Source: Gemmatimonadetes bacterium T265 (GTDB lineage Bacteria; Gemmatimonadota; Gemmatimonadetes; Gemmatimonadales; Gemmatimonadaceae). Taken from it: a stretch of DNA of 64,000 nucleotides. The translations under genes and the position numbers were made by a program. The notes under the pieces are model-generated. The model ran no database searches and was not told the origin of the DNA. It saw only the letters and a list, made by a program, of their open reading frames with translations. The stretch is taken from NCBI GenBank assembly GCA_019973575.1, contig BPUI01000002.1:1302001-1366000 (forward strand), read 5' to 3'. Positions 9,501 through 42,329 of this stretch are shown one piece after another (within the stretch, counting starts at the first letter, position 1; every line of letters starts with the position of its first letter).

Positions 9501-10112
9501 GTGTTGCAGACCCTCCTGCGGTGGCTGCACGGGCTCCGCCCCGTCGCCCTCTACACGGTCGCGGCGGTCGCGGCCGCCGTCGAGAACGTCTTCCCGCCGC
9601 TGCCGTCGGACGTGGTCGTCGCGTTCAGCGCTTTCGCGGCCGCGCGCGGGCGCGGGTCGGCGGCGGGCGCGTTCGCGGCGGCTCTCGTGGGGAACGTCGC
9701 CGGCGCGATGCTCATGTACGCCGTCGGAGCGCGGGTCGGCTCGCGGGCGGTGCTCCGGAGGTTCGGGGCGGGGGACGCGCAGGAGCGGAAGCTCCGCGAG
9801 TGGTACGGCCGCCGCGGGCTCGTCGCGATCGCGGCGAGCCGGCTGCTCCCGGGCGTGCGCGCGATCGTGCCGCCGGTGGCCGGTGCGTTAGGCGTCGGCG
9901 CGGTGCGGTCGGCCGCCGCGATGGCGCTCCCCTCGGCCCTGTGGTACGGGGCGATCACGTACGTCGCCTTCACCGCGGGCGGCGACTTCGACGCCCTGCT
10001 CGCACGCGTCGGGGCCGGCCAACGCTGGGCGACGATCGGCGCCGGCGTCGCGCTCGTCGGCGCGGGCGCGGCGTGGTGGCGGCATCGTCGACGCGCGCGG
10101 AGTACGGCATGA
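9501..10112 (+). CDS. DedA/VTT-family membrane protein
   Basis: A 203-residue integral membrane protein of the DedA (SNARE-associated, VTT) superfamily. Markers are ENVFPPLPSDVVV near residues 29-41 (family ExxxPxxPxE region), GNVAGAMLMYAVG, and the amphipathic SRLLPGVRAIVPPVAG loop. Related proteins help flip undecaprenyl-phosphate or phospholipids; the substrate here is not visible. Several hydrophobic helices and a basic C-terminal end (WWRHRRRAR) are present. The stop overlaps the next gene's ATG. Confidence 0.82.
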   Translation: MLQTLLRWLHGLRPVALYTVAAVAAAVENVFPPLPSDVVVAFSAFAAARGRGSAAGAFAAALVGNVAGAMLMYAVGARVGSRAVLRRFGAGDAQERKLREWYGRRGLVAIAASRLLPGVRAIVPPVAGALGVGAVRSAAAMALPSALWYGAITYVAFTAGGDFDALLARVGAGQRWATIGAGVALVGAGAAWWRHRRRARSTA

Positions 10113-11041
10113 CGGCGGCAGAGATCGCGCCGGGCATCCCGGACGCGGCCGCGCGGGCCTTCCGCCTCGAGCAGTTCCACGACTACCTCGCCGTCGAGAG
10201 GGGCGCCGCCGCGAACACGCAGCTCGCGTACGCACGCGACGTCGCGCGCTTCGTCACGTACGCGACCGTCGCCGGCGTTCCCGGCCCGGAGCGCGTCCCG
10301 CCGCGCGCGCTCCGCGAGTTCGTCTACCACCTCAAGGACCTCGGCCTCGCCCCCGCGTCGATCCGGCGCGGCATCAGCGCGCTCCGCACCTATTACCGCT
10401 TCCTGCTCGACGAGGGGCACGTGACGGAGGACCCGAGCGAGCGGCTGGAGCCGCCGGCGCGGTGGGCGACGCTCCCCGGCGTGCTCAGCGTCGCCGACGT
10501 CGAACGCCTGCTCGCCGCGCCGTCGCTCGACGATCGGTTTGCGTTCCGCGACCGCGCGATGCTCGAACTCGCCTACGGCGCCGGGCTGCGCGTTTCGGAG
10601 TGGATCGGGATCGGCGTGCGCGACGTCCGCTTCGACGAGCAGTTGCTCCGGGTCTTCGGGAAGGGGTCGAAGGAGCGCCTCGTGCCGATCGGCCGTGCGG
10701 CCATCGGCGCGACCGCGGTGTACCTCCGCGAACTCCGACCGCGGCTGGAGCGCGGCGCCGGACGGGGCGTGTTGTTCCTCAACGCGCGCGGCGAGCCGCT
10801 GACCCGGATGGGCGCGTGGAAGATCCTCCGTAAGCACGTCGACGCGGCGGCGATCACCACGCACGTCACGCCCCACACGCTGCGCCACAGTTTCGCGACC
10901 CACCTGCTCGAAGGCGGCGCGGACCTCCGCGCGGTGCAGGAAATGCTCGGACATGCGAGCATCGCGACGACGCAGATCTACACGCACGTCGACCGTGAGT
11001 ACCTCCGCGGCGTGCACCGTCAGTATCACCCGCGCGCCTGA
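10109..11041 (+). CDS. xerD: Tyrosine recombinase XerC/XerD
   Basis: A 310-residue tyrosine recombinase of the length used by chromosomal Xer proteins. The N-terminal SAM-like DNA-binding domain covers residues 18-105. The catalytic residues are Arg161 (GAGLRVSE), Lys185 (GKGSKER), His256/Arg259 (HTLRHSFATH), His282 (LGHASI) and Tyr291 (IYTHVD). It should act with a partner at dif to resolve chromosome dimers; a dif-like site is present at 32179-32206. Its place in a housekeeping run and the match to XerD argue against a phage integrase. XerC versus XerD is not certain. Confidence 0.85.
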   Translation: MTAAEIAPGIPDAAARAFRLEQFHDYLAVERGAAANTQLAYARDVARFVTYATVAGVPGPERVPPRALREFVYHLKDLGLAPASIRRGISALRTYYRFLLDEGHVTEDPSERLEPPARWATLPGVLSVADVERLLAAPSLDDRFAFRDRAMLELAYGAGLRVSEWIGIGVRDVRFDEQLLRVFGKGSKERLVPIGRAAIGATAVYLRELRPRLERGAGRGVLFLNARGEPLTRMGAWKILRKHVDAAAITTHVTPHTLRHSFATHLLEGGADLRAVQEMLGHASIATTQIYTHVDREYLRGVHRQYHPRA

Positions 11042-11074: not shown

Positions 11075-11704
11075 ATGATTCTCGTCGTCGACAACTACGA
11101 CTCGTTCACGTACAACCTCGTCCAGTACCTCGGCGACCTCGGCGCCGACGTCACCGTGCGTCGCAACGACGCGATCACTGTCGACGAGGTCGGGGCGCTC
11201 CAGCCGCGCGCGGTCGTGCTGTCGCCCGGCCCGTGCACGCCGCGCGACGCGGGCGTCACCGTGCCGCTCGTTCAGCGCTGGGGCGCCGAGATCCCGATCC
11301 TCGGCGTCTGCCTCGGCCACCAGGCGATCGGCGAGGCGTACGGCGGTCGCGTCGTGCGCGCCGGCCGCATCATGCACGGCAAGACGTCGGCGCTCGACCA
11401 CGACGGGACGGGGCTCTTCCGTCGCCTGCCCCGGCCGCTCACCGTGATGCGGTACCACTCGCTCGTCGTCGAGCCCGAATCCGTGCCGGACGTTCTGCGC
11501 GTGACCGCGCGCGCGGTGGACGCGCCCGCCGAAATCCACGCCGTCGAGCACGTGCGTGATCCCGTCTGGGGTGTCCAGTTCCACCCGGAGTCGGTGCTCA
11601 CCGAGGGCGGGCGCGAACTGGTCGCCAACTTCCTCGCGCTCGCCGACGAGTTCCACGCGCGGGCGCGGCCAGTCGCGCCGTCCGCTTTGCAGCTGACCGA
11701 TTAA
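11075..11704 (+). CDS. pabA: Class I glutamine amidotransferase, PabA/TrpG type
   Basis: A 209-residue amidotransferase subunit that supplies ammonia from glutamine to chorismate for 4-aminodeoxychorismate (folate) or anthranilate (tryptophan). The triad is Cys79 in GVCLGHQAIG and His170/Glu172 in FHPES. The N-terminal VVDNYDSFTYNLVQYLG is diagnostic of this group. No pabB or trpE lies nearby, so its partner is elsewhere and it may serve both pathways. The TAA overlaps the next ATG by one base. Confidence 0.9.
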   Translation: MILVVDNYDSFTYNLVQYLGDLGADVTVRRNDAITVDEVGALQPRAVVLSPGPCTPRDAGVTVPLVQRWGAEIPILGVCLGHQAIGEAYGGRVVRAGRIMHGKTSALDHDGTGLFRRLPRPLTVMRYHSLVVEPESVPDVLRVTARAVDAPAEIHAVEHVRDPVWGVQFHPESVLTEGGRELVANFLALADEFHARARPVAPSALQLTD

Positions 11705-13353
11705 TGACCGACGATCTGACCGGCGCGTCGCCGGCCCGGACCGCCCCGAGGCGTCGATGGTACGGCCGCCTGAGCGGCGACCGACGGCCCGGCGCGGCCG
11801 CCCGCGTCGTCATGCCCGTCTCGGTCGCGGCGGCCGCGTTGGTCGCGGCCGCGCCGGCACGCGCGCAGCGGACGCCCGCGGACACAGCGGGGCAGGGCGC
11901 GATCGCCGCCGCCGCGGCGCACGCGCGCGAACTCGTCGTCGACGATCCCGGGCCGGGCATTGCGGGGCGCACGTTGGCCGCGGTGCTCGACCGCCCGCAC
12001 GTCGTGCTGATCTCGCCCGACACGGGTCTTACGCTCGGCCGCGACGTGCACGTCGACCGTGCGCTCGTCGTGAATCACGGCCCGCTCCGGCTGGCGGGCC
12101 GGGTCGAAGGCGACGTGGTCGTCTTCGGCGACCTGTTTCTGCGCCCCGGCGCACAGGTCACGGGCCGCGTGATCGCGATCGGCGGCGGCGTTTACGGCTC
12201 GGCCCTGGCCCTCGTCCGCGGGGAGGTGCTCGCCTACCGCGACCTCGCCGTCGCGCAGCGCACGACGGAGACGCGCATCACCGTCGCGATCAGCCGCGCG
12301 GCCGCGGTCCCGGGCCCACGCGTGACGCTGCCCGGCGTCGTCGGCTTCCGCGTCCCGACGTACGATCGGATCGACGGACTCTCGGCACCCCTCGGTCCCG
12401 AGTTCGTCCTCGACACCGGTCGGGTACGGGTCGACCCGACGGTCACCTACCGCAGCCACCTCGGCGCGTTCGACCCCGCTGTGCGCGCGCACGCGGAGCT
12501 CGGGCGGCGCATCGTGGTCGACGCCAGCGCGGAGCGCGCGACCCTCACGAACGACCGGTGGATCCGCGGCGACTTCACCAGCTCGCTCTCGATGTTGGGC
12601 AGCGGCGAGGACGTCCGCAACTACTACCGCGCGACCCGGGTCGACGCGACGGTCGGCAGCCGGTACGAGCTCGGCGCGGGCGTGTTCGAGCCCTACGTCG
12701 GCGGGCTCACCGAGGAGGCGAGTTCCGTCGCGCGCGACACGGGGAGTAACTCGTACCCGTGGAGCTTCCTTTCGCATCGTTCGCTCGAGGGGTCACGCCG
12801 CGCGAATCCGGCCGTGACGGGCGGCCGCATCACGTCCGCACTCGCGGGGGCGCGGTTCGCATTCGAGAGCCCCCGCGTCGTCGGCCGGGCGGGCGCGCGG
12901 GTCGAGCAGGCGCTCGACGTCGCACGCGGCGCCCGCTTCACGCAGGTGACCGTCGACGCGGCGCTCGCCTTACCGACGAACGACGAGCACCTGTTCGAGT
13001 TCCTTGCGCACGGCGTCGCGACCAGCGGCGGCGCGGGCGTGCCGACGCAACGGTATGCCTACCTCGGCGGCAGCGGGACGTTGCCGTCGCTCTTTCTACT
13101 CGCCGAAGGCGGGACGGAGCTCGCGTGGGCGGAGGCACGGTACACCGTGCCCGTGCGCGTCATCCGCGTCCCGTTCGGCGTGCCGACGATCACGGCGCGC
13201 GCGATGGCCGGCAGCGCGGGGGTGAACACGCTCCCGGCGTTCACGCCGAACCTGGGCCTCCGGGCCGCCGTGTCGATCGTCCGCGCCGACTTCGTCTTCG
13301 ACCCGCGCGGGCGCGGGCGACGCGTGTTCACCCTCGGCGTCGGCCTCCGTTAG
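11704..13353 (+). CDS. Putative outer-membrane protein, polymer-type beta repeat plus beta-barrel
   Basis: A 549-residue exported protein. After an unusually long basic N-terminus, residues about 38-55 form a signal-like hydrophobic stretch ending APARAQ. Residues about 105-165 carry short beta repeats (GRDVHVDRALVVNHG, GRVEGDVVVFGDLFLRPGAQVTGRVIAIGG) resembling bactofilin-like polymer-forming domains. The rest has alternating beta strands as in an outer-membrane barrel and ends in a FTLGVGLR strand. A later start nearer the signal peptide is possible. No specific function is recognisable. It ends in a 4-base convergent overlap with the TerC-type gene. Confidence 0.6.
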   Translation: MTDDLTGASPARTAPRRRWYGRLSGDRRPGAAARVVMPVSVAAAALVAAAPARAQRTPADTAGQGAIAAAAAHARELVVDDPGPGIAGRTLAAVLDRPHVVLISPDTGLTLGRDVHVDRALVVNHGPLRLAGRVEGDVVVFGDLFLRPGAQVTGRVIAIGGGVYGSALALVRGEVLAYRDLAVAQRTTETRITVAISRAAAVPGPRVTLPGVVGFRVPTYDRIDGLSAPLGPEFVLDTGRVRVDPTVTYRSHLGAFDPAVRAHAELGRRIVVDASAERATLTNDRWIRGDFTSSLSMLGSGEDVRNYYRATRVDATVGSRYELGAGVFEPYVGGLTEEASSVARDTGSNSYPWSFLSHRSLEGSRRANPAVTGGRITSALAGARFAFESPRVVGRAGARVEQALDVARGARFTQVTVDAALALPTNDEHLFEFLAHGVATSGGAGVPTQRYAYLGGSGTLPSLFLLAEGGTELAWAEARYTVPVRVIRVPFGVPTITARAMAGSAGVNTLPAFTPNLGLRAAVSIVRADFVFDPRGRGRRVFTLGVGLR

Positions 13354-14297
13354 GCGTCGGATCCGACCCGGCGCCGCGGGAACGCGAGCGACGCGCCGAC
13401 CGCCGCGCCCAGCACGCCGACGACCACGCCGAGCGAGACGAGCGTCGGCACCTCCCAGACGCCCGAGACGAGCATCTTCGCGCCGACGAAGGCGAGCACG
13501 ACCGCGAGCCCGTAGCGCAGGTAGTGGAACCGGTCCATGACGCCGGCGAGCAGGAAGAAGACGGAGCGCAGCCCGAGGATGGCGAACACGTTCGACGTGT
13601 AGATGAGGAACGGGTCGCGCGTGACCCCGAAGATCGCCGGGATCGAGTCGACCGCGAAGACGAGGTCCGTGGTCTCGAGCAGGACGAGCACGACGAAGAG
13701 CGGCGTCGCGGCGCGACGTACGGAACCGTCCGGCGCGCGCTCGCGGACGAAGAAGTGCGGCCCGGCGACGTCGCGCGTCACCGGCATCACGCGCCGCACC
13801 AGCCGGAGCGCCGGGTTGTCCGAGGGATCATACTCGTCGTCGCCGGCACGACGCAGCGCGAGCCGCACGCCGCTGACGAGCAGGAACGCGCCGAAGACGT
13901 ACGTCGCCCAGGCGAACGCCTCGACGAGCGCCGTGCCCGCGCCGATCATCGCGCCGCGCAGCGCGAGCGCGCCGAAAATGCCCCAGAACAGCACCCGGTG
14001 CTGGAACTCGGCGGGTACGCGGAACGCGGAGAAGATCAGCAGAAAGACGAACAGGTTGTCGACCGAGAGCGCCTCCTCGACGACGTAGCCGGTCGCGAAC
14101 TCGAGCGCGGCGGCTGCGCCTAACGTCACGGCGATTCCGGTGCCGAACGCGGCGGCGAGCGCGAGCCACGCGGCGCTCCACAGCGCCGCCTCGCGCAACG
14201 ACGGGCGGTGCGCGCGGCGGTTGACGACGCCGAGGTCGAGCCCGAGCAGGGCGAGCACGCACGCGGCGAAGGCGAGCCAGAGCCAGACGTGGGTCAT
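13350..14297 (-). CDS. TerC-family integral membrane protein
   Basis: A 315-residue membrane protein of the TerC/Alx family with about nine predicted helices. Family signatures are the EEALSVDNLFVFLLIFSAF segment (with the conserved acidic residues), LLETTDLVFAVDSIPAIFGVT and FAILGLRSVFFLL. Such proteins have been tied to metal (manganese) export or tellurite resistance; the substrate cannot be read from sequence. The ATG at 14297 gives a TM-like N-terminus (MTHVWLWLAFAACV); the longer antisense frame upstream is a shadow of kdsB. It is the only chromosomal gene here on the minus strand before dapF. Confidence 0.88.
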   Translation of the reverse strand: MTHVWLWLAFAACVLALLGLDLGVVNRRAHRPSLREAALWSAAWLALAAAFGTGIAVTLGAAAALEFATGYVVEEALSVDNLFVFLLIFSAFRVPAEFQHRVLFWGIFGALALRGAMIGAGTALVEAFAWATYVFGAFLLVSGVRLALRRAGDDEYDPSDNPALRLVRRVMPVTRDVAGPHFFVRERAPDGSVRRAATPLFVVLVLLETTDLVFAVDSIPAIFGVTRDPFLIYTSNVFAILGLRSVFFLLAGVMDRFHYLRYGLAVVLAFVGAKMLVSGVWEVPTLVSLGVVVGVLGAAVGASLAFPRRRVGSDA

Positions 14298-36476: not shown

Positions 36477-36937
36477 GCTTCGCCATCCCCGACCACATCG
36501 GCGGCATCGCGCGGCAGGCGCTCGAGCGCCAGCTGCGCGAGCAGGCCGACGAGGCCGAGCGCCGCCGCGCGCTCGCGATCACGGCGCGCGGCGAGGACGT
36601 CGCCGCCGTCGAGAAGGCCACGCAGCACGACGTCGTGAAGGTCTTCCGCGCCCTCAAGGGCGAGGTCTACGTCCTCTCGCAGGCGCGTGCCGCGAAGCAG
36701 ACGCCCGGCCTGCCCGACCTCTGGGTCGCGTGGCCCGCGCGCGGCGTCGCGGGCTGGTTCGAGACGAAGCGGCCAAAGGGCGGCCGCCTCTCGGACGAGC
36801 AGGTCGCGTTCGCCGCGCAGTGCCTCGCGGCCGGCGTCGCCTACGGCGTCGGCTCGCGGAAGGACGCGGAGGCGTGGGTCATCGCGCTCGGCCTCGCCTA
36901 CCGCGACGCGCACGGCGTGCTGGAGCCGGTCCGGTGA
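36473..36937 (+). CDS. VRR-NUC domain nuclease
   Basis: A 154-residue protein with the PD-(D/E)XK core of VRR-NUC nucleases: TPGLPDLWVAWP near residues 77-88 and WFETKRPKGGRLSDEQVAF near 96-115, where E and K are the catalytic pair. An N-terminal helical Arg/Glu-rich extension precedes it. Phage VRR-NUC proteins are often junction resolvases or replication-linked nucleases. It directly follows the replication gene, which supports that role. Confidence 0.8.
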   Translation: MSFAIPDHIGGIARQALERQLREQADEAERRRALAITARGEDVAAVEKATQHDVVKVFRALKGEVYVLSQARAAKQTPGLPDLWVAWPARGVAGWFETKRPKGGRLSDEQVAFAAQCLAAGVAYGVGSRKDAEAWVIALGLAYRDAHGVLEPVR

Positions 36938-36983
36938 CGGGCCGTGCGCCTCACACCTCCACCCGTGCGCCGGAGCGCGCCCC

Positions 36984-37622
36984 GTGAACCGCCTCCGCAT
37001 CCCGATCCCGACCTTCGCCGACGTGCGGGCCCTCGGTGCGCGCCTCGTCGCCGCCGAGCACCGGGCCGTCACCGCGGTCGGGCTCTGGTGGGCCCGGCGC
37101 CGGACGGCCGCCGCGCGTGCGACGCCCGGCCCCACGCCCGCGCCCCACGCCCCGGCCGCGCCGCCCGCGCTGCACCCGGCGTTCGCGCCCGACCCCGTGC
37201 CCGGCGTCCCGTCGGACGTCCCGCGCGGCACCACCCCGCTCGGCGTGACCACGCCGGGCTACGGCGCCGCGACCGCGGCGTCGCGTACCCCTTTGGAGAT
37301 CCTCCTCATGGCCGTCACCGCCGACCAAGTCACCATCCAGCACGCCGCCGACGATATCCGCAAGGCGGCCGCCGCCATCCAGGCGCGCGACCAGACGATC
37401 GCCGCGCTGAAGAAGCAGATCGCCGACCTGGGCGTCACCGCGCCCAACCTCACCGACCTCGCGGCCGCGTCCACCGCGCTCGACGCGCTGCTCAACCCGC
37501 CCCCGGCGCCAGCCCCCGCCCCGGCGCCCGCCCCCGCCCCGGCCCCCGCACCCGCGCCGGCTCCAACGCCTGCTCCGGCCGCGCCCACCGGCGTCACGGT
37601 GAGCGGGCCGACCGCCGCCTAA
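36984..37622 (+). CDS. Phage protein with coiled coil and Pro-Ala repeat tail
   Basis: From GTG 36984 it has 212 residues: a helical Arg-rich start, a Pro/Ala linker (residues 50-100), a coiled-coil-like segment (VTIQHAADDIRKAAAAIQARDQTIAALKKQIADL) and a C-terminal run of alternating Pro-Ala. Alternatively the true gene starts at ATG 37309 (preceded by GGAG) and encodes only the coiled coil and Pro-Ala tail. No domain is recognised. The Pro-Ala tail is encoded by an imperfect short repeat (about 37498-37580) that could vary in length. Confidence 0.5.
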   Translation: MNRLRIPIPTFADVRALGARLVAAEHRAVTAVGLWWARRRTAAARATPGPTPAPHAPAAPPALHPAFAPDPVPGVPSDVPRGTTPLGVTTPGYGAATAASRTPLEILLMAVTADQVTIQHAADDIRKAAAAIQARDQTIAALKKQIADLGVTAPNLTDLAAASTALDALLNPPPAPAPAPAPAPAPAPAPAPAPTPAPAAPTGVTVSGPTAA

Positions 37623-37630
37623 CCGGCCCG

Positions 37631-37654
37631 GAAAACAACGGCGAAAACAACGGC
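37631..37654 (+). repeat. Tandem 12-bp repeat
   Basis: GAAAACAACGGC occurs twice back to back in the spacer after the Pro-Ala protein. It is A-rich compared with its surroundings. It may be a regulator or spacer element; no promoter is evident. Confidence 0.6.
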
Positions 37655-37705
37655 CGGGCGTCGCACATTGGGCGTCCGGTCATCCCCGCACCCCGGAGTG
37701 TGTCC

Positions 37706-38110
37706 GTGCCCGCGACGCCCGCCCGCGCGATCGCCGCCCCCGAAGCGTACGCCCCGCACCCGTTGCCGTCGCCAGGCGGAGTGGAGCGCCGCGCCACGCG
37801 CCGCACCCGCTACGCACACGGCGACACCCGCACCGCGGGGTGGCTCGACGGGCCGATCGAGTCGGCGCTGTGCTGCGCCCGCGGTCACCACGTGAAGGAC
37901 GGCGCCCTCGTCACCGGGGAGCAACCGATCCGGTGCCCGCGGGACGACTGCCGCGGCCTCCTCTGGGTGATCGTCACCCGGTCCGGCGCGGTGTTCGTCG
38001 CCGAGGTGGACTGGAGCGACGTCCGCGCGATCAAGGCGCTCGCGTCCGTCGTGGAGACGCTCCGCTACCTCGGCGCGCCGATCTGGCCACGGCCAGCGGG
38101 GCGCGTCTAA
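37706..38110 (+). CDS. Phage protein with Cys-rich zinc-ribbon-like centre
   Basis: About 134 residues from GTG 37706, which has GGAG 7 bases upstream (GTG 37700 is the alternative). The N-terminal third is disordered. The centre has CC..GHH and CPRDDC with a following GLLWVIV strand, a plausible zinc ribbon. The C-terminus is helical. The family is not recognised. It is the last gene before the noncoding stretch with the CRISPR-like element. Confidence 0.55.
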   Translation: MPATPARAIAAPEAYAPHPLPSPGGVERRATRRTRYAHGDTRTAGWLDGPIESALCCARGHHVKDGALVTGEQPIRCPRDDCRGLLWVIVTRSGAVFVAEVDWSDVRAIKALASVVETLRYLGAPIWPRPAGRV

Positions 38111-38264
38111 CGCATACCGGGGACCTACACCCGACGTGCCGACACGCAAGCCGCCCCGTTCCCGGTGAACTTCACGATGGGGTCTGCCCCGCGTGCGCGG
38201 GGATGACGCCTAGTATTAGGCGGTACTCGCACCATTCACCCCGCGCACCAGGAGTGCAGCCGAA
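38111..38264. other. Noncoding stretch between two small phage genes
   Basis: No ORF is supported. It contains GTGAA-C-TTCAC (38165-38175), the CRISPR-like repeat (38182-38210), an adjacent CGCCTA/TAGGCG hairpin (38207-38222) and AGGAG for the next gene. A TAGTAT box at 38211-38216 could be a weak -10, but no -35 fits. Confidence 0.6.
38182..38210 (+). repeat. Solitary type I-E-like CRISPR repeat in the prophage
   Basis: The 29-base element starts GTCTG, then has the core CCCCGCGTGCGCGGGGATGA and ends CGCC. The CCCCGC-GTGC-GCGGGG hairpin followed by ATGA is the hallmark of type I-E repeats recognised by Cas6e. Cleavage after the hairpin would leave an 8-base handle ATGACGCC. Against typical actinobacterial I-E repeats I count about 22 of 29 matches by eye, and about 20 of 29 against E. 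coli. There is no second repeat, no array and no cas gene nearby. It may act as an RNA anti-CRISPR; a plain hairpin terminator is the main alternative. Confidence 0.55.
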
Positions 38265-38477
38265 ATGAACGACCTCACGCCAGTCGGCTGGTTGGTGATG
38301 GACATGGCTCCGGACGGTTTCGCCGCGCGGCGCTACATCGTCGTTTTTACCAAGGCAACTCCGGGCATGATGTTGGGTCCGGTCGCGGCTGGGCCCTTCG
38401 ATTCCGAAGAGGTAGCCCAGCGCGAGGCTGACAGGTTGGAAGCCGCCAACCCGCTGCTGGACGCCCGTTCGAAGTAG
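38265..38477 (+). CDS. Small phage protein of unknown function
   Basis: A 70-residue protein with GWLVMDMAPDGFAARRYIVVFTK at the start, likely two beta strands, and a short acidic helix (DSEEVAQREADRLEAAN) at the end. AGGAG lies about 10 bases before the ATG. The codons are less GC-biased than in the neighbours. It stands alone between the CRISPR-like element and a terminator-like hairpin, so it may be a separately transcribed early or accessory gene, possibly connected to the element. No family is recognised. Confidence 0.6.
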   Translation: MNDLTPVGWLVMDMAPDGFAARRYIVVFTKATPGMMLGPVAAGPFDSEEVAQREADRLEAANPLLDARSK

Positions 38478-38609
38478 GCAAGGCCCCGCTCCGCCGCGTC
38501 GCGCTTGCCGGAACGCATGACCCCGCCGTAACGTTTATCGCCGGCCGTCACGTTCGGCCCAGTCGCGCGTCTTCCGGCGCGCGCCCACAACTCGCTCGCC
38601 GCCTCCCAC

Positions 38610-38642
38610 GGCCCCGCCTCCCTTTCGGAGGCCGGGCCGTTT
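38610..38642 (+). terminator. Intrinsic-type hairpin before the terminase operon
   Basis: GGCCC-C-GCCTCC pairs with GGAGGC-C-GGGCC around a CTTTC loop (11 pairs, one C-C mismatch), followed by GTTT. The same architecture recurs at 42828. The rest of the 207-base spacer 38478-38684 shows nothing else. Confidence 0.6.
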
Positions 38643-38684
38643 CGCGTTGCCCCTCCCGCCCGTGCGCCTCGCCCCCTGCCCGCG

Positions 38685-38996
38685 ATGGCCGCCGCCCTCC
38701 CGCTCCCCGCGCCCGAGCACCTCCTCCTCGTGCACCTCGCCGCGCGCGGAGTGGCGGGCCGCGCCGCGCCGGTTCCCCCCGCGCCGCGCCTGCTCGCGCC
38801 GCCCGCCCCGGCCGACGACCCGGACGGCCTCGGCACGCTCGAGGCGCAGCTCGCTGGCGCACTGGCCGCGCAGGACGCGCTCCGGCACGCCCACGGCGGC
38901 GGGATGGGCACCATGCCGGCCGGGGTTGTGATCGCGTACGAGGCGTACGAGGCGCTGATCCGCCACCTCCGCGTCTACTGCCGTGGCGGCGCGTAA
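38685..38996 (+). CDS. Small phage protein upstream of the terminase
   Basis: A 103-residue protein: Pro/Ala-rich first half and a helical second half (LGTLEAQLAGALAAQDALRHAHGGG, IAYEAYEALIRHLRVYC). It overlaps the next gene by 14 bases. No domain is recognised. It could be a packaging accessory, but this rests only on position. Confidence 0.5.
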   Translation: MAAALPLPAPEHLLLVHLAARGVAGRAAPVPPAPRLLAPPAPADDPDGLGTLEAQLAGALAAQDALRHAHGGGMGTMPAGVVIAYEAYEALIRHLRVYCRGGA

Positions 38997-39405
38997 GGCG
39001 GCCGCGAAGGCCGCGGCGAAGGTCCCGGCGAAGCGTACGCGGCGGAAGGTGGCGACCGTCCCGCAGCCGCACGGGGGCGCGCTCGCCGTGCAGGGCACGC
39101 CCGGCAACCAGGGCGGCCCGGGGCGGCCGAAGAACGAGGTCCGCGCCGCGGCGCTCGAGGGCGCCGACGAGGCGATCCCCGTGCTGCGCGGGATCGTCCT
39201 CGACGCGAAGCTCCGTACGAAGCGGCCCGCCGTCGTGGTGCTCGCGGCCGACAAGCTGTTGAAGTACGGCCTCGGGACGCAGAAGGAGGTCAGCATCGAC
39301 GAGGTGAAGGGGCGGCTCCGCAAGACGATCGACCTCGCGCGCGAGCTCCTCCCGCCCGACCTGTTCCGCGACTTCGCGGCGCGGCTGCACACCGTATGGC
39401 GCTGA
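38983..39405 (+). CDS. Probable terminase small subunit
   Basis: A 140-residue protein. A Lys/Arg/Ala-rich N-terminus precedes GNQGGPGRPKNEVRAAALEGADEAIPVLRGI, a pattern frequent in phage proteins encoded next to the large terminase, and a helical C-terminal region (DKLLKYGLGTQKEVSIDEVKGRL). It overlaps the large subunit gene. The role in recognising phage DNA for packaging is inferred from position and the basic/helical make-up. Confidence 0.6.
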   Translation: MAARKAAAKAAAKVPAKRTRRKVATVPQPHGGALAVQGTPGNQGGPGRPKNEVRAAALEGADEAIPVLRGIVLDAKLRTKRPAVVVLAADKLLKYGLGTQKEVSIDEVKGRLRKTIDLARELLPPDLFRDFAARLHTVWR

Positions 39406-41132
39406 GCCGTACGGGCGGCGCGCCCTCGCTCTGGCCGGACGATCTCGACCCGGCCGGCGAGGTGTTCGCGCCCGGCGACCCGCTCGGCGACGCGGCCCGC
39501 GGGTCGAAGCTCGCCGCGCTCTACACGGCCGCGCTCGCGGACAGCGACGCGGCCGCCGTCGCGCGCCCGTTAGGCCCGCCGGCCGCCCCGCTCGTCGACT
39601 TCGTCCGCGGCGCGTGGGAGGTCCTCGAGCCCGACACGCCGTTCCTCCCCAATTGGCACGTCGACGCGGTGTGCGCGCACCTGGAGGCGGCGACGCGGAG
39701 CTACGCGCTCACCCGCCTCGACCAGCCCGACGTCGACGCGTGGTGGCGGCGGCCCGCGATTCGGGACCTCCTCATCAACATCCCGCCCGGGTTCATGAAG
39801 TCCCTGCTCGGCGCGGTGTTCTGGCCCGCGTGGGTGTGGACGTTCCTGCCCGGCTGGCGCGGCCTCTTCTGCTCGTACGCGATCGACCTCGCGCTCCGCG
39901 ACTCGGTGAAGTGCCGCACGCTGATCGAGAGCGACTGGTACCGCGACACGTTCCGGCCGACGTGGGCGCTCAGCGGCGACCAGAACGTGAAGAGCTACTT
40001 CGCGAACTCGGCGACCGGCTTCCGGCTCTGCGTGAGCGTCGGCGGCCGCGCGACCGGCTTCCGCGGGCACGCGATCGTCGTCGACGACCCGCTGAACGCG
40101 AACGACACGCACAGCGAGGTCGCGCGCGCCGAGGCGCGCACGTGGTGGGACCGGAGTATGTCCAGCCGCGTGAACGACAAGCGCACCGGCGCCCGCGTCG
40201 TCATCATGCAGCGGCTGCACCAGGAGGACCTGACGGGCCACCTGATCGCGCGCGGCGGTTACCAGCAGCTCATCCTGCCGCTCGAGTTCGAGCCGGCTCG
40301 GAAGGCGGTGACGTCGATCGGCTGGGAGGATCCGCGCACCGAGCCCGGCGAGTGCCTGTTCCCGGCGATGTTCCCGCCCGAGGTGATCGCGCAGACGCAG
40401 GCCGAGCTGCTCGACGACTACCCGGGCCAGTACCAGCAGCGGCCGAGCGCGGCCGAGGGCGGGATCTTCAAGCGCGATTGGTTCCGCACGTACGACACGA
40501 GCCCGCCCAAGCTGCACAGCGTGCTCCTCGCGTGCGACGCGAACGTCAAGGCGACGAAGAAAGGCTCGTACGCGGTGGTGCAGCTCTGGGGGCGCGTCAA
40601 CGCCGACCTCTTCCTCCTCGGCCAGATCCGCGCGCGGCTCGACTTCCCCGCCCTGCTCGACGCGCTCCGGTGGGCGAGCGCGTACCGCGTCGGCGCGCAC
40701 CAGCTGGCGGGCGCGAAGCTGATCGAGGACAAGGCCAACGGGCCGGCCGCGATCGCCACGCTCCAGAGGCAGCTGCCCGGCGTGATCGCCGTCCCCGTCG
40801 AGGTGAGCAAGGAGGCGCGCTGGCGCTCGGCATCACCCTACGTGCGTGCCGGCAACGTGTACCTGCCCGGCCCCGGGCCCGCGGCCGCGTGGGTGCGCGC
40901 GTGCGCGGGGCTTGTCGACGCCGGCACGATCACCCCGGCCGACAACAAGCCCACCTGGGTGCAGGATTTCGTCGACGAGCTGGCGACCGTGCCGACCGCG
41001 GCCGACGACGACCAGGCCGACACGGCGACGATGGCGATCCTCGAGCTGGCGCAGCCGCCGAAGCGCGGGGACGGCACGCCGATGCAGCGGCAGGCGTCGC
41101 GGGCGGCTGGCGCGATCGCAGCGATGGAGTAG
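39396..41132 (+). CDS. Terminase large subunit
   Basis: A 578-residue packaging ATPase-nuclease. The Walker A-like segment NIPPGFMKSLL is near residue 128, Walker B AIVVDDPL near residue 228, followed by a coupling motif region IMQRLHQEDLTG. The C-terminal RNase H-like nuclease has acidic residues in LLACDAN, LIEDKANG and DDDQADT. It drives DNA into the prohead and cuts it. ATG 39396 overlaps the small subunit. One in-frame TTA-GGC heptamer is present. Confidence 0.93.
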   Translation: MALSRTGGAPSLWPDDLDPAGEVFAPGDPLGDAARGSKLAALYTAALADSDAAAVARPLGPPAAPLVDFVRGAWEVLEPDTPFLPNWHVDAVCAHLEAATRSYALTRLDQPDVDAWWRRPAIRDLLINIPPGFMKSLLGAVFWPAWVWTFLPGWRGLFCSYAIDLALRDSVKCRTLIESDWYRDTFRPTWALSGDQNVKSYFANSATGFRLCVSVGGRATGFRGHAIVVDDPLNANDTHSEVARAEARTWWDRSMSSRVNDKRTGARVVIMQRLHQEDLTGHLIARGGYQQLILPLEFEPARKAVTSIGWEDPRTEPGECLFPAMFPPEVIAQTQAELLDDYPGQYQQRPSAAEGGIFKRDWFRTYDTSPPKLHSVLLACDANVKATKKGSYAVVQLWGRVNADLFLLGQIRARLDFPALLDALRWASAYRVGAHQLAGAKLIEDKANGPAAIATLQRQLPGVIAVPVEVSKEARWRSASPYVRAGNVYLPGPGPAAAWVRACAGLVDAGTITPADNKPTWVQDFVDELATVPTAADDDQADTATMAILELAQPPKRGDGTPMQRQASRAAGAIAAME

Positions 41133-41201: not shown

Positions 41202-42329
41202 GTGCAGGCTCCCGGGGAGAAGCTCGCCGAGAAGATGTGGGAGACCCTGTTCGACAAGGGTATCGCCGCCATCCTTCGCCCCTTTCAAATGCGTCGAGTG
41301 GGAAGCGCGGCACTGGAGGTTAAACAGGAAGAGATCATCGGAATTGCGCTCGCGGAGACGCAGGCCGCGATGATCCGTGCGCAGCAACCAATGCTCGTCG
41401 CGGGAGGCGAGACCACCGCCGTTCATCCCTCGCCCGTGCGCCTCATTCAGTCCGCCGCCGACGCCGAGTCCAATCCGCGGCGTCTCATCCTGCAGGCCGC
41501 CGCGGAGAGCGGCGCGGCCGATGTCCTGCGCCGAGAGCTAAACGTCGCGCGTGCGGCCGTATTCGCCGATCAGGACCTCCGCCAGTTATCGGCGGGGAAT
41601 GCGCCTGACCTCCTCGAACCCGAGATCGTCGAACCCGAGATCGTCGAACCCGAGATCGTCGAACCCGAGATCGTCGAACCCGAGATCGTCGAACCCGAGA
41701 TCGTCGAACCATCAAGAGATTTCGTCGATTCCGATTGGCTCTACCGGTGGCGCGACGCCGCGAGTGAGGTGTCGCAAGAGGAGCTTCAGCGGCTGTGGGG
41801 ACGTATCCTCGCAGGTGAAGTCAGGACCCCGGGCGCGTTCTCGCTCCGTACCCTTGAGTTCCTTCGGAATATCTCGGCGGAAGAGGCAGAGAAGATCGCG
41901 CAGCTTGCACGGTTCGTAGCAGGCGGCTTCATATTCAAGTCGCCAAGCGGGTCGCTAAGTGCGGCCGGCTTCAACATGACCGCGATGCTTGGGATGCAGC
42001 ATCTCGGGTTGATCGCCGGGGTGGACGGGATTGGCCTAAAATGCCAGATGGGCTCGTCCAAGCCGGACGTGTATGAGCTGGCTGTACCCGCAACGAACCG
42101 GGTTCTGCTCCTGAGGGACCCGAATCCCGTTCGCATTTTTGCAGCGCCAGGCTATCCGATCACGAACCTCGGAAAGCAGGTGTTCCGACTGAGCCGTCAG
42201 CCGGTTTCGGAAGAGTACTTGACGGAACTGGGGATGACCGCGAAGGCGGACGGGTTTCAGGTATGGATCGGCGACTGCGTAGCAGCCACGGAGACCAACG
42301 TACAGTGCGCGAACCTGAACGAGCTTTGA
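41202..42329 (+). CDS. DUF2806 protein, probable phage cargo
   Basis: A 375-residue protein. Residues about 170-290 match the DUF2806 pattern ([54 protein letters not shown]). The N-terminal 130 residues are helical, and a tandem PEIVE repeat (six units) links the parts. The domain resembles proteins in mobile elements with unknown, possibly defensive, function. Its base composition is visibly lower in GC than the flanking phage genes, and it interrupts the terminase-portal order, so it looks like a recently acquired moron. GAGG lies 6 bases before GTG 41202. Confidence 0.7.
41616..41705 (+). repeat. Six tandem 15-bp repeats in the DUF2806 gene
   Basis: GAACCCGAGATCGTC is repeated six times without a single change, encoding EPEIV each time. 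The 15-bp unit preserves frame, so slippage would alter linker length without disrupting the protein. Confidence 0.95.

Follow-up and report, generated by a model that had tools for sequence, protein, structure and literature searches.

What is a hairpin that closely resembles a type I-E CRISPR repeat doing on its own between two small genes of a prophage? The element concerned occupies 29 bases (GTCTGCCCCGCGTGCGCGGGGATGACGCC; 38182-38210, plus strand) of the window, by which we mean the whole 64,000-nucleotide stretch of the bacterium's DNA that was analysed, and it was taken in the preliminary description for a lone repeat of the kind that phages can express as RNA anti-CRISPRs. The reading that we put ahead, with barely better than even chances, is a different one: that a cargo slot of the prophage contains a decayed pair of the host's own CGTC-type REPs, arranged head to head, of which the element is the better-preserved member. 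Here and below the weights given to explanations are the authors' estimates and not computed posteriors.

The element in its prophage

On re-reading, the sequence and coordinates of the 29-mer and of the perfect hairpin that adjoins it proved exact, as did their placing in noncoding DNA inside a prophage. The spacer, 154 bases at 38111-38264, separates a 134-aa gene of coding-type composition (GC3 0.93) from a 70-aa ORF, and the surrounding gene block is genuine prophage, with PHROGs matches to large terminase, portal and DNA methyltransferase (Table 1). A further ORF, 37840-38268, runs across the element in a different frame and looks spurious, its GC3 being 0.57. The adjoining hairpin is real but on its own unremarkable, for the window contains 88 perfect 6-bp/4-nt hairpins, several of them in close pairs; a second perfect copy, as for a repeated operator, was not found in the window. 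The prophage element is the window's only CCCCGC-N4-GCGGGG hairpin. No Rfam family reached its gathering score in the window, and near the element there was only a chance snoRNA match.

Table 1. Positions of the element, its neighbours and the chromosomal hairpins that share its stem-loop
Feature	Position	Strand	Remarks
Upstream 134-aa phage gene	37706..38110	+	Zinc-ribbon-like cysteine motif by eye; kept in sister prophage
Stem-loop CCCCGC-GTGC-GCGGGG, 16 bases	38187..38202	+	Same as stem-loop of host I-E array repeat and of 8 chromosomal REP-type hairpins
Second perfect hairpin CGCCTA-GTAT-TAGGCG (CGCCTAGTATTAGGCG)	38207..38222	+	Between the two inverted arms
Degenerate inverted partner (plus strand TCACCCCGCGCACCAGGAGTGCA)	38236..38258	-	About 25 bases downstream of the element
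Probable Shine-Dalgarno AGGAG of the 70-aa ORF	38250..38254	+	From sequence and folds; in right arm of the long hairpin
70-aa ORF	38265..38477	+	Cargo in variable slot; GC below that of its neighbours
Large terminase subunit (39396-41132, phrog_38) and gene overlapping its start	38983..41132	+	Marks the surroundings as prophage
Eight hairpins with identical stem-loop, host genome	C1:305193, 573592, 574274, 643837, 1556736, 2542055, 2587891; C2:337657

A second genome of the family (G155) contains a sister prophage with the same gene order over 37.7-59.8 kb and a terminase that is 74% identical. The sister has other genes in place of the 70-aa ORF in the slot bounded by the 134-aa gene and the terminase genes, and for this reason the slot is considered one for variable cargo. 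Neither an element-like hairpin in the homologous slot of the sister prophage nor a Cas6e in its genome was found. By eye, the sister slot (L142 with L143, reverse complement, ~11350-13019) contains a gene resembling that of a sigma factor and, on the reverse strand, an ORF with hydrophobic stretches, and there is a strong hairpin ahead of the next small gene. The 70-residue protein had been suggested as an accessory, of which there is no indication: it could be matched to no family, and searches of viral contigs and of 395 genomes found no relatives. On its 3' side a strong inverted repeat (window 38608-38640; 14 bp, 93% complementary, 5-base loop) is perhaps a terminator for the cargo slot. 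Between the terminase and portal genes a 375-aa protein (window 41202-42329) carries a six- to seven-fold EIVEP tandem repeat and, since the sister prophage has no matching DNA, perhaps marks a second slot for variable cargo.

One stem, two repeat classes

The bacterium has on contig 5 a complete type I-E operon from Cas3 to Cas2. It comprises Cas3, a 535-aa protein in the Cas8e position (no Pfam match), Cse2 (below its Pfam cut-off), Cas7e, Cas5e, Cas6e, Cas1 and a Cas2-like protein assigned by position and by eye, and is followed by an array of 64 repeats with a 61-base period. The resemblance to a type I-E repeat that first drew attention to the element is thus well founded, since the stem-loop (CCCCGCGUGCGCGGGG) of the array's consensus repeat (GTCGCCCCCGCGTGCGCGGGGATGGACCC) is identical to that of the element, and the comparison with I-E repeats of related genomes that had been proposed also favours it: the element agrees with the array consensus at 24 of 29 bases (83% identity) and with the last, degenerate repeat of the array (GTCGCCCCCGCGTGCGCGGGGATGACTCC) at 26 (89.7%). 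Apart from the element itself, that terminal repeat is alone in having the exact 20-base core within the 5.63 Mb genome, and no other sequence in 395 genomes of the phylum comes within three mismatches. Host repeat and element have in common the GTC start, CCCCGCGTGCGCGGGGATG, CC at the end and the 29-base frame, and differ at positions 4-5 and 25-27 (ATGACG in the element, ATGGAC in the array); the element moreover lacks tandem copies and the 61-base period. Outside its own genome no copy of the 29-mer with up to three mismatches was found in the 395 relatives, though such collections may omit nearby records and absence from them does not amount to uniqueness. Nor were there exact or near-exact copies in 84,980 GTDB genomes (searched with two patterns), copies in viral contigs (IMG/VR) or lone hairpins in 80 related phage loci.

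The spacers of the array include none with a near-complete self-targeting match in the host genome, the best being 25/32 in the window. At the array's end (L009 ~13851-13935) come a degenerate repeat, ATGACTCC, and, at a distance of one unit, a much decayed 65th, GTCGCCCCCACGTGAACGAGGGTACACC. What remains of a second, different I-E locus (L010, G000:C1:944000-958000, ~9760-10509, minus strand) has two repeats (GCGTTCCCCGCACGCGCGGGGATGAACCG) 61 bases apart and a degenerate third, with an adjoining open frame resembling, by eye, a Cas3 HD domain.

The same stem has another home in this genome. The search with the 20-base core also yielded scattered sites with one or two mismatches, many in number, and these make up a family of about 50 hairpins dispersed over contigs 1-3, with the consensus TGGACCCCCGC-N4-GCGGGGGTGACG, on the other strand CGTC-AYCCCCGC-N4-GCGGGGRT-CCA; they are often arranged as inverted pairs, the clearest of which are 12-29 bases apart. 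The pattern CCCGC-N4-GCGGGNNTGAC has 30 matches in the host genome as against 0 for a reversed control pattern, and with up to two mismatches GTCACCCCCGC-N4-GCGGGGGTCCAC occurs there 34 times as against 0-3 times in each of 58 relatives (copies were present in three of these, with 1-3 each). Eight of the chromosomal hairpins have the identical 16-base stem-loop. Occurrence of the same hairpin at many unrelated loci had been named in the preliminary description as something that would speak against an anti-CRISPR, and such occurrence is what was found.

CGTC-1 REPs have a CGTC head, an 8-bp stem, a 4-nt loop and a CCA tail, and are mostly head-to-head dimers without a dedicated transposase, Neisseria dRS3 being one of them (PMC3733652). 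Judged by their sequence the host's dispersed hairpins have this architecture, and the REP-type transposase PF01797 was not found in the host genome. CGTC REPs are listed from five phyla only (PMC3733652). Viral contigs contain the REP consensus too, in 69 stretches, and phage DNA can therefore carry such hairpins.

To which of the two classes does the prophage element belong? Membership can be claimed for neither, because the element fails the rule for solitary repeats and is without the tail and outer stem pairs that a REP would have. The SRUFinder rule sets minima of 90% identity, 90% coverage of a known repeat and a bit score of 41.1. With blastn-short the element matches the array consensus at 100% over 19/29 bases (38.2 bits) and the terminal repeat at 100% over 21/29 (42.1 bits), and a coverage of 66-72% falls short of the published 90%/90% for the I-E repeats tested. 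As a solitary repeat should be, it is solitary, intergenic and on a mobile element, in a host that has CRISPR-Cas of the same subtype. A CGTC-tagged REP is defined by a terminal CGTC next to an 8-9 bp stem with complementary A/T at its first two positions, and a 4-5 nt loop (PMC3733652). The minus strand of the 29-mer, CGTC-AT-CCCCGC-GCAC-GCGGGG, corresponds to such a head and stem, with CGTC at 38208-38205 and then ATCCCCGC, and the many dispersed copies expected in the genome are there in the chromosomal hairpins. Its stem, though, has 6 bp around the 4-nt loop, the head-side A/T is without a complement (CAGACC, not RTCCA) and the tail side continues past the stem with CAGACC in place of a CCA tail; neither the outer REP arm (TGGAC) nor the last two stem pairs are present.

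Scoring gives a similarly divided picture. In profile searches the element reached 19.4 bits (E 6.5e-5) with a model of the host array and 17.7 bits (E 1.6e-4) with a REP model, for which it is the only good match in the window. A REP matrix gave it 11.9 bits against at least 22.4 for all 26 clear REPs. In a matrix of 19 I-E repeats, mostly read from plasmid loci and related genomes, it scored 23.9 and came first of 84, the best of 83 chromosomal hairpin readings having 23.4; on leave-one-out it outscored 3 of the 19 genuine repeats, which places it at their low end. The sequence of the monomer therefore leans to I-E, narrowly. One chromosomal hairpin equals the element's 24/29 to the array consensus, at the array's 13 flanking positions at least six do as well as the element or better, and the letters ACG at positions 25-27, by which it departs from the array repeat, are those of the REPs. 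A matrix from the host array only was discarded as evidence of CRISPR origin because it was too narrow (dispersed hairpins reached 14.8 and the element 18.3), and the 19-repeat model was used for the verdict in its place.

A degenerate partner and a predicted long hairpin

Downstream of the element, TCACCCCGCGCACCAGGAGTGCA can form 13 bp, interrupted by one bulge, with the element's GTGCGCGGGGATGA. This partner has the orientation and the loop sequence expected of a head-to-head REP dimer, and its distance falls within the range of the host's clear REP pairs. A partner this good would arise by chance with a probability of ~0.001-0.012 (0.7-1.2% of window blocks, 0.07% of local shuffles), and its score of 13 lies between those of paired (at least 19) and unpaired (at most 12) REPs. 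The spacers of REP dimers carry small stem-loops (PMC3733652). The likeness to CGTC-1 REPs (PMC3733652) extends from the CGTC head, adjoining A/T, CCCCGC stem and 4-nt loop of the minus strand to the probable head-to-head inverted partner, the small stem-loop in the spacer between the two, the many family copies in the genome and the site between co-directional genes; what differs is the want of the outer two stem pairs and CCA tail, and the degeneracy of the partner.

Folding predictions for the RNA give a single long hairpin, 38185-38258, in which the I-E-like stem is buried, as is most of the 70-aa ORF's ribosome-binding site (for 126 bases, z = -2.87 vs shuffles). In predicted folds transcripts ending by 38222 keep the short stem and those reaching 38248 lose it. 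We place little weight on this burial, since of 62 genuine array repeats only 17 retain the stem when predicted in pre-crRNA context, and the long hairpin was dropped as strong evidence against Cas6e recognition.

What puts the decayed REP dimer ahead is the sequence, the partner and the number of copies, together with how rarely prophages contain solitary repeat units. This reading would imply a common origin with the chromosomal REPs, and the likeness to the host I-E repeat would come from the CCCCGC-N4-GCGGGG stem common to both repeat classes in the genome. The inverted halves, whether as RNA or as single-stranded DNA, would fold into the one long hairpin, and if the modelled folds are a guide this may affect expression, at most as an ordinary REP-type structure does, by protecting an mRNA end, by attenuation or by covering the ribosome-binding site of the 70-aa ORF. 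Against it stand the missing outer parts, a REP matrix score below all clear REPs, an I-E score above the chromosomal hairpins and the intermediate score of the partner.

The element may instead be a solitary I-E repeat and, as such, a candidate RNA anti-CRISPR, whose transcript the host Cas6e would bind and would cut after G38202, with Cas6e and Cas7e tied up in dead subcomplexes. We regard this as unlikely, if deserving to be taken seriously. The host's complete operon and 64-repeat array, the identical stem-loop with its GTC start, 29-base frame and ATG after the stem, the restriction of the best matches among 395 genomes to its own genome, and the solitary intergenic position in a cargo slot all favour it; so do the scarcity of Cas6e, above cut-off in 7 of 179 genomes of the family, the residence of the element-free sister prophage in a genome without detected Cas6e, and the GTCT with which repeats of a related Bosea plasmid I-E system likewise start. 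RacrIF1, RacrIE1 and RacrIE2 (PMC10651486) are similar in being lone repeat-like hairpins in prophage spacers, with a host of matching subtype and the stem-loop of the host repeat. RacrIF1 needs its stem-loop but can do without its 5' handle (PMC10651486), a requirement which an identical stem with a changed handle fits, and by this analogy the element could, if transcribed, work like an RNA anti-CRISPR. It differs from the three in being 83% (terminal repeat 89.7%) identical and not at least 90% over 90%, in having look-alikes scattered over the chromosome and in that its RNA role is a predicted one. The stem-loop is not specific, since eight chromosomal REP-type hairpins have the same one, and were the element to work via it the same would hold for them; 24/29 to the consensus is background level, and the 19-21 aligned bases fail the coverage rule. 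No sigma-70-like promoter was found in 36900-39500 by a scan limited to that type and no terminator on the element's strand, viral contigs have no copy, and in long predicted transcripts the downstream arm displaces the I-E stem (many genuine array repeats also fold poorly). Of the anti-CRISPR proposal, then, the host I-E system and the identical stem-loop have stood up; about 50 dispersed look-alikes and the shortfall in coverage weigh against the rest.

The position of the ribosome-binding site in the right arm invites a quite improbable third reading, a cis-acting hairpin that regulates the 70-aa ORF locally and shares no descent with REPs or CRISPR, in which the long inverted repeat would cover the site and an alternative pair of short hairpins would expose it. 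AGGAG is mostly paired in the predicted fold with its z-score, and the dependence of the short stem on transcript end is as such a switch would have it; but searches turned up no relative of either the ORF or the spacer on which covariation could be judged, the REP profile match and head-to-head layout already account for the inverted pair, and the array control marks folds of GC-rich RNA as unreliable here. That the prophage captured a piece of the host array, such as its degenerate end, which is now decaying without function, is very improbable: the closest match anywhere searched is indeed the array's last repeat, but the flanking bases have no visible similarity to array flanks. Slighter still are the chances we allow a combination in which a REP-like palindrome has been put to use by the prophage as a CRISPR-sensing RNA, the long hairpin hiding the ribosome-binding site until capture of the I-E stem-loop by Cas6e flips the leader, so that the 70-aa ORF would be made while Cas6e is tied up.

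What a shared stem may mean

Were the element an RNA anti-CRISPR after all, it would be a further type I-E example and would extend host range rather than principle, because RacrIE1 and RacrIE2 have already been shown to work (PMC10651486). For GC-rich genomes there is a caution: CGTC-type REPs and I-E repeats can closely share the CCCCGC-N4-GCGGGG stem, and searches for lone repeats consequently need the host's REP family as background. The eight chromosomal hairpins are, from their sequence, potential Cas6e substrates because their stem-loop is exactly that of the host I-E repeat, and if the CRISPR-sensing reading were true they would be substrates also. Does the Cas6e of such hosts bind, or even cut, transcripts that bear REPs? 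It is the shared stem that raises this question.
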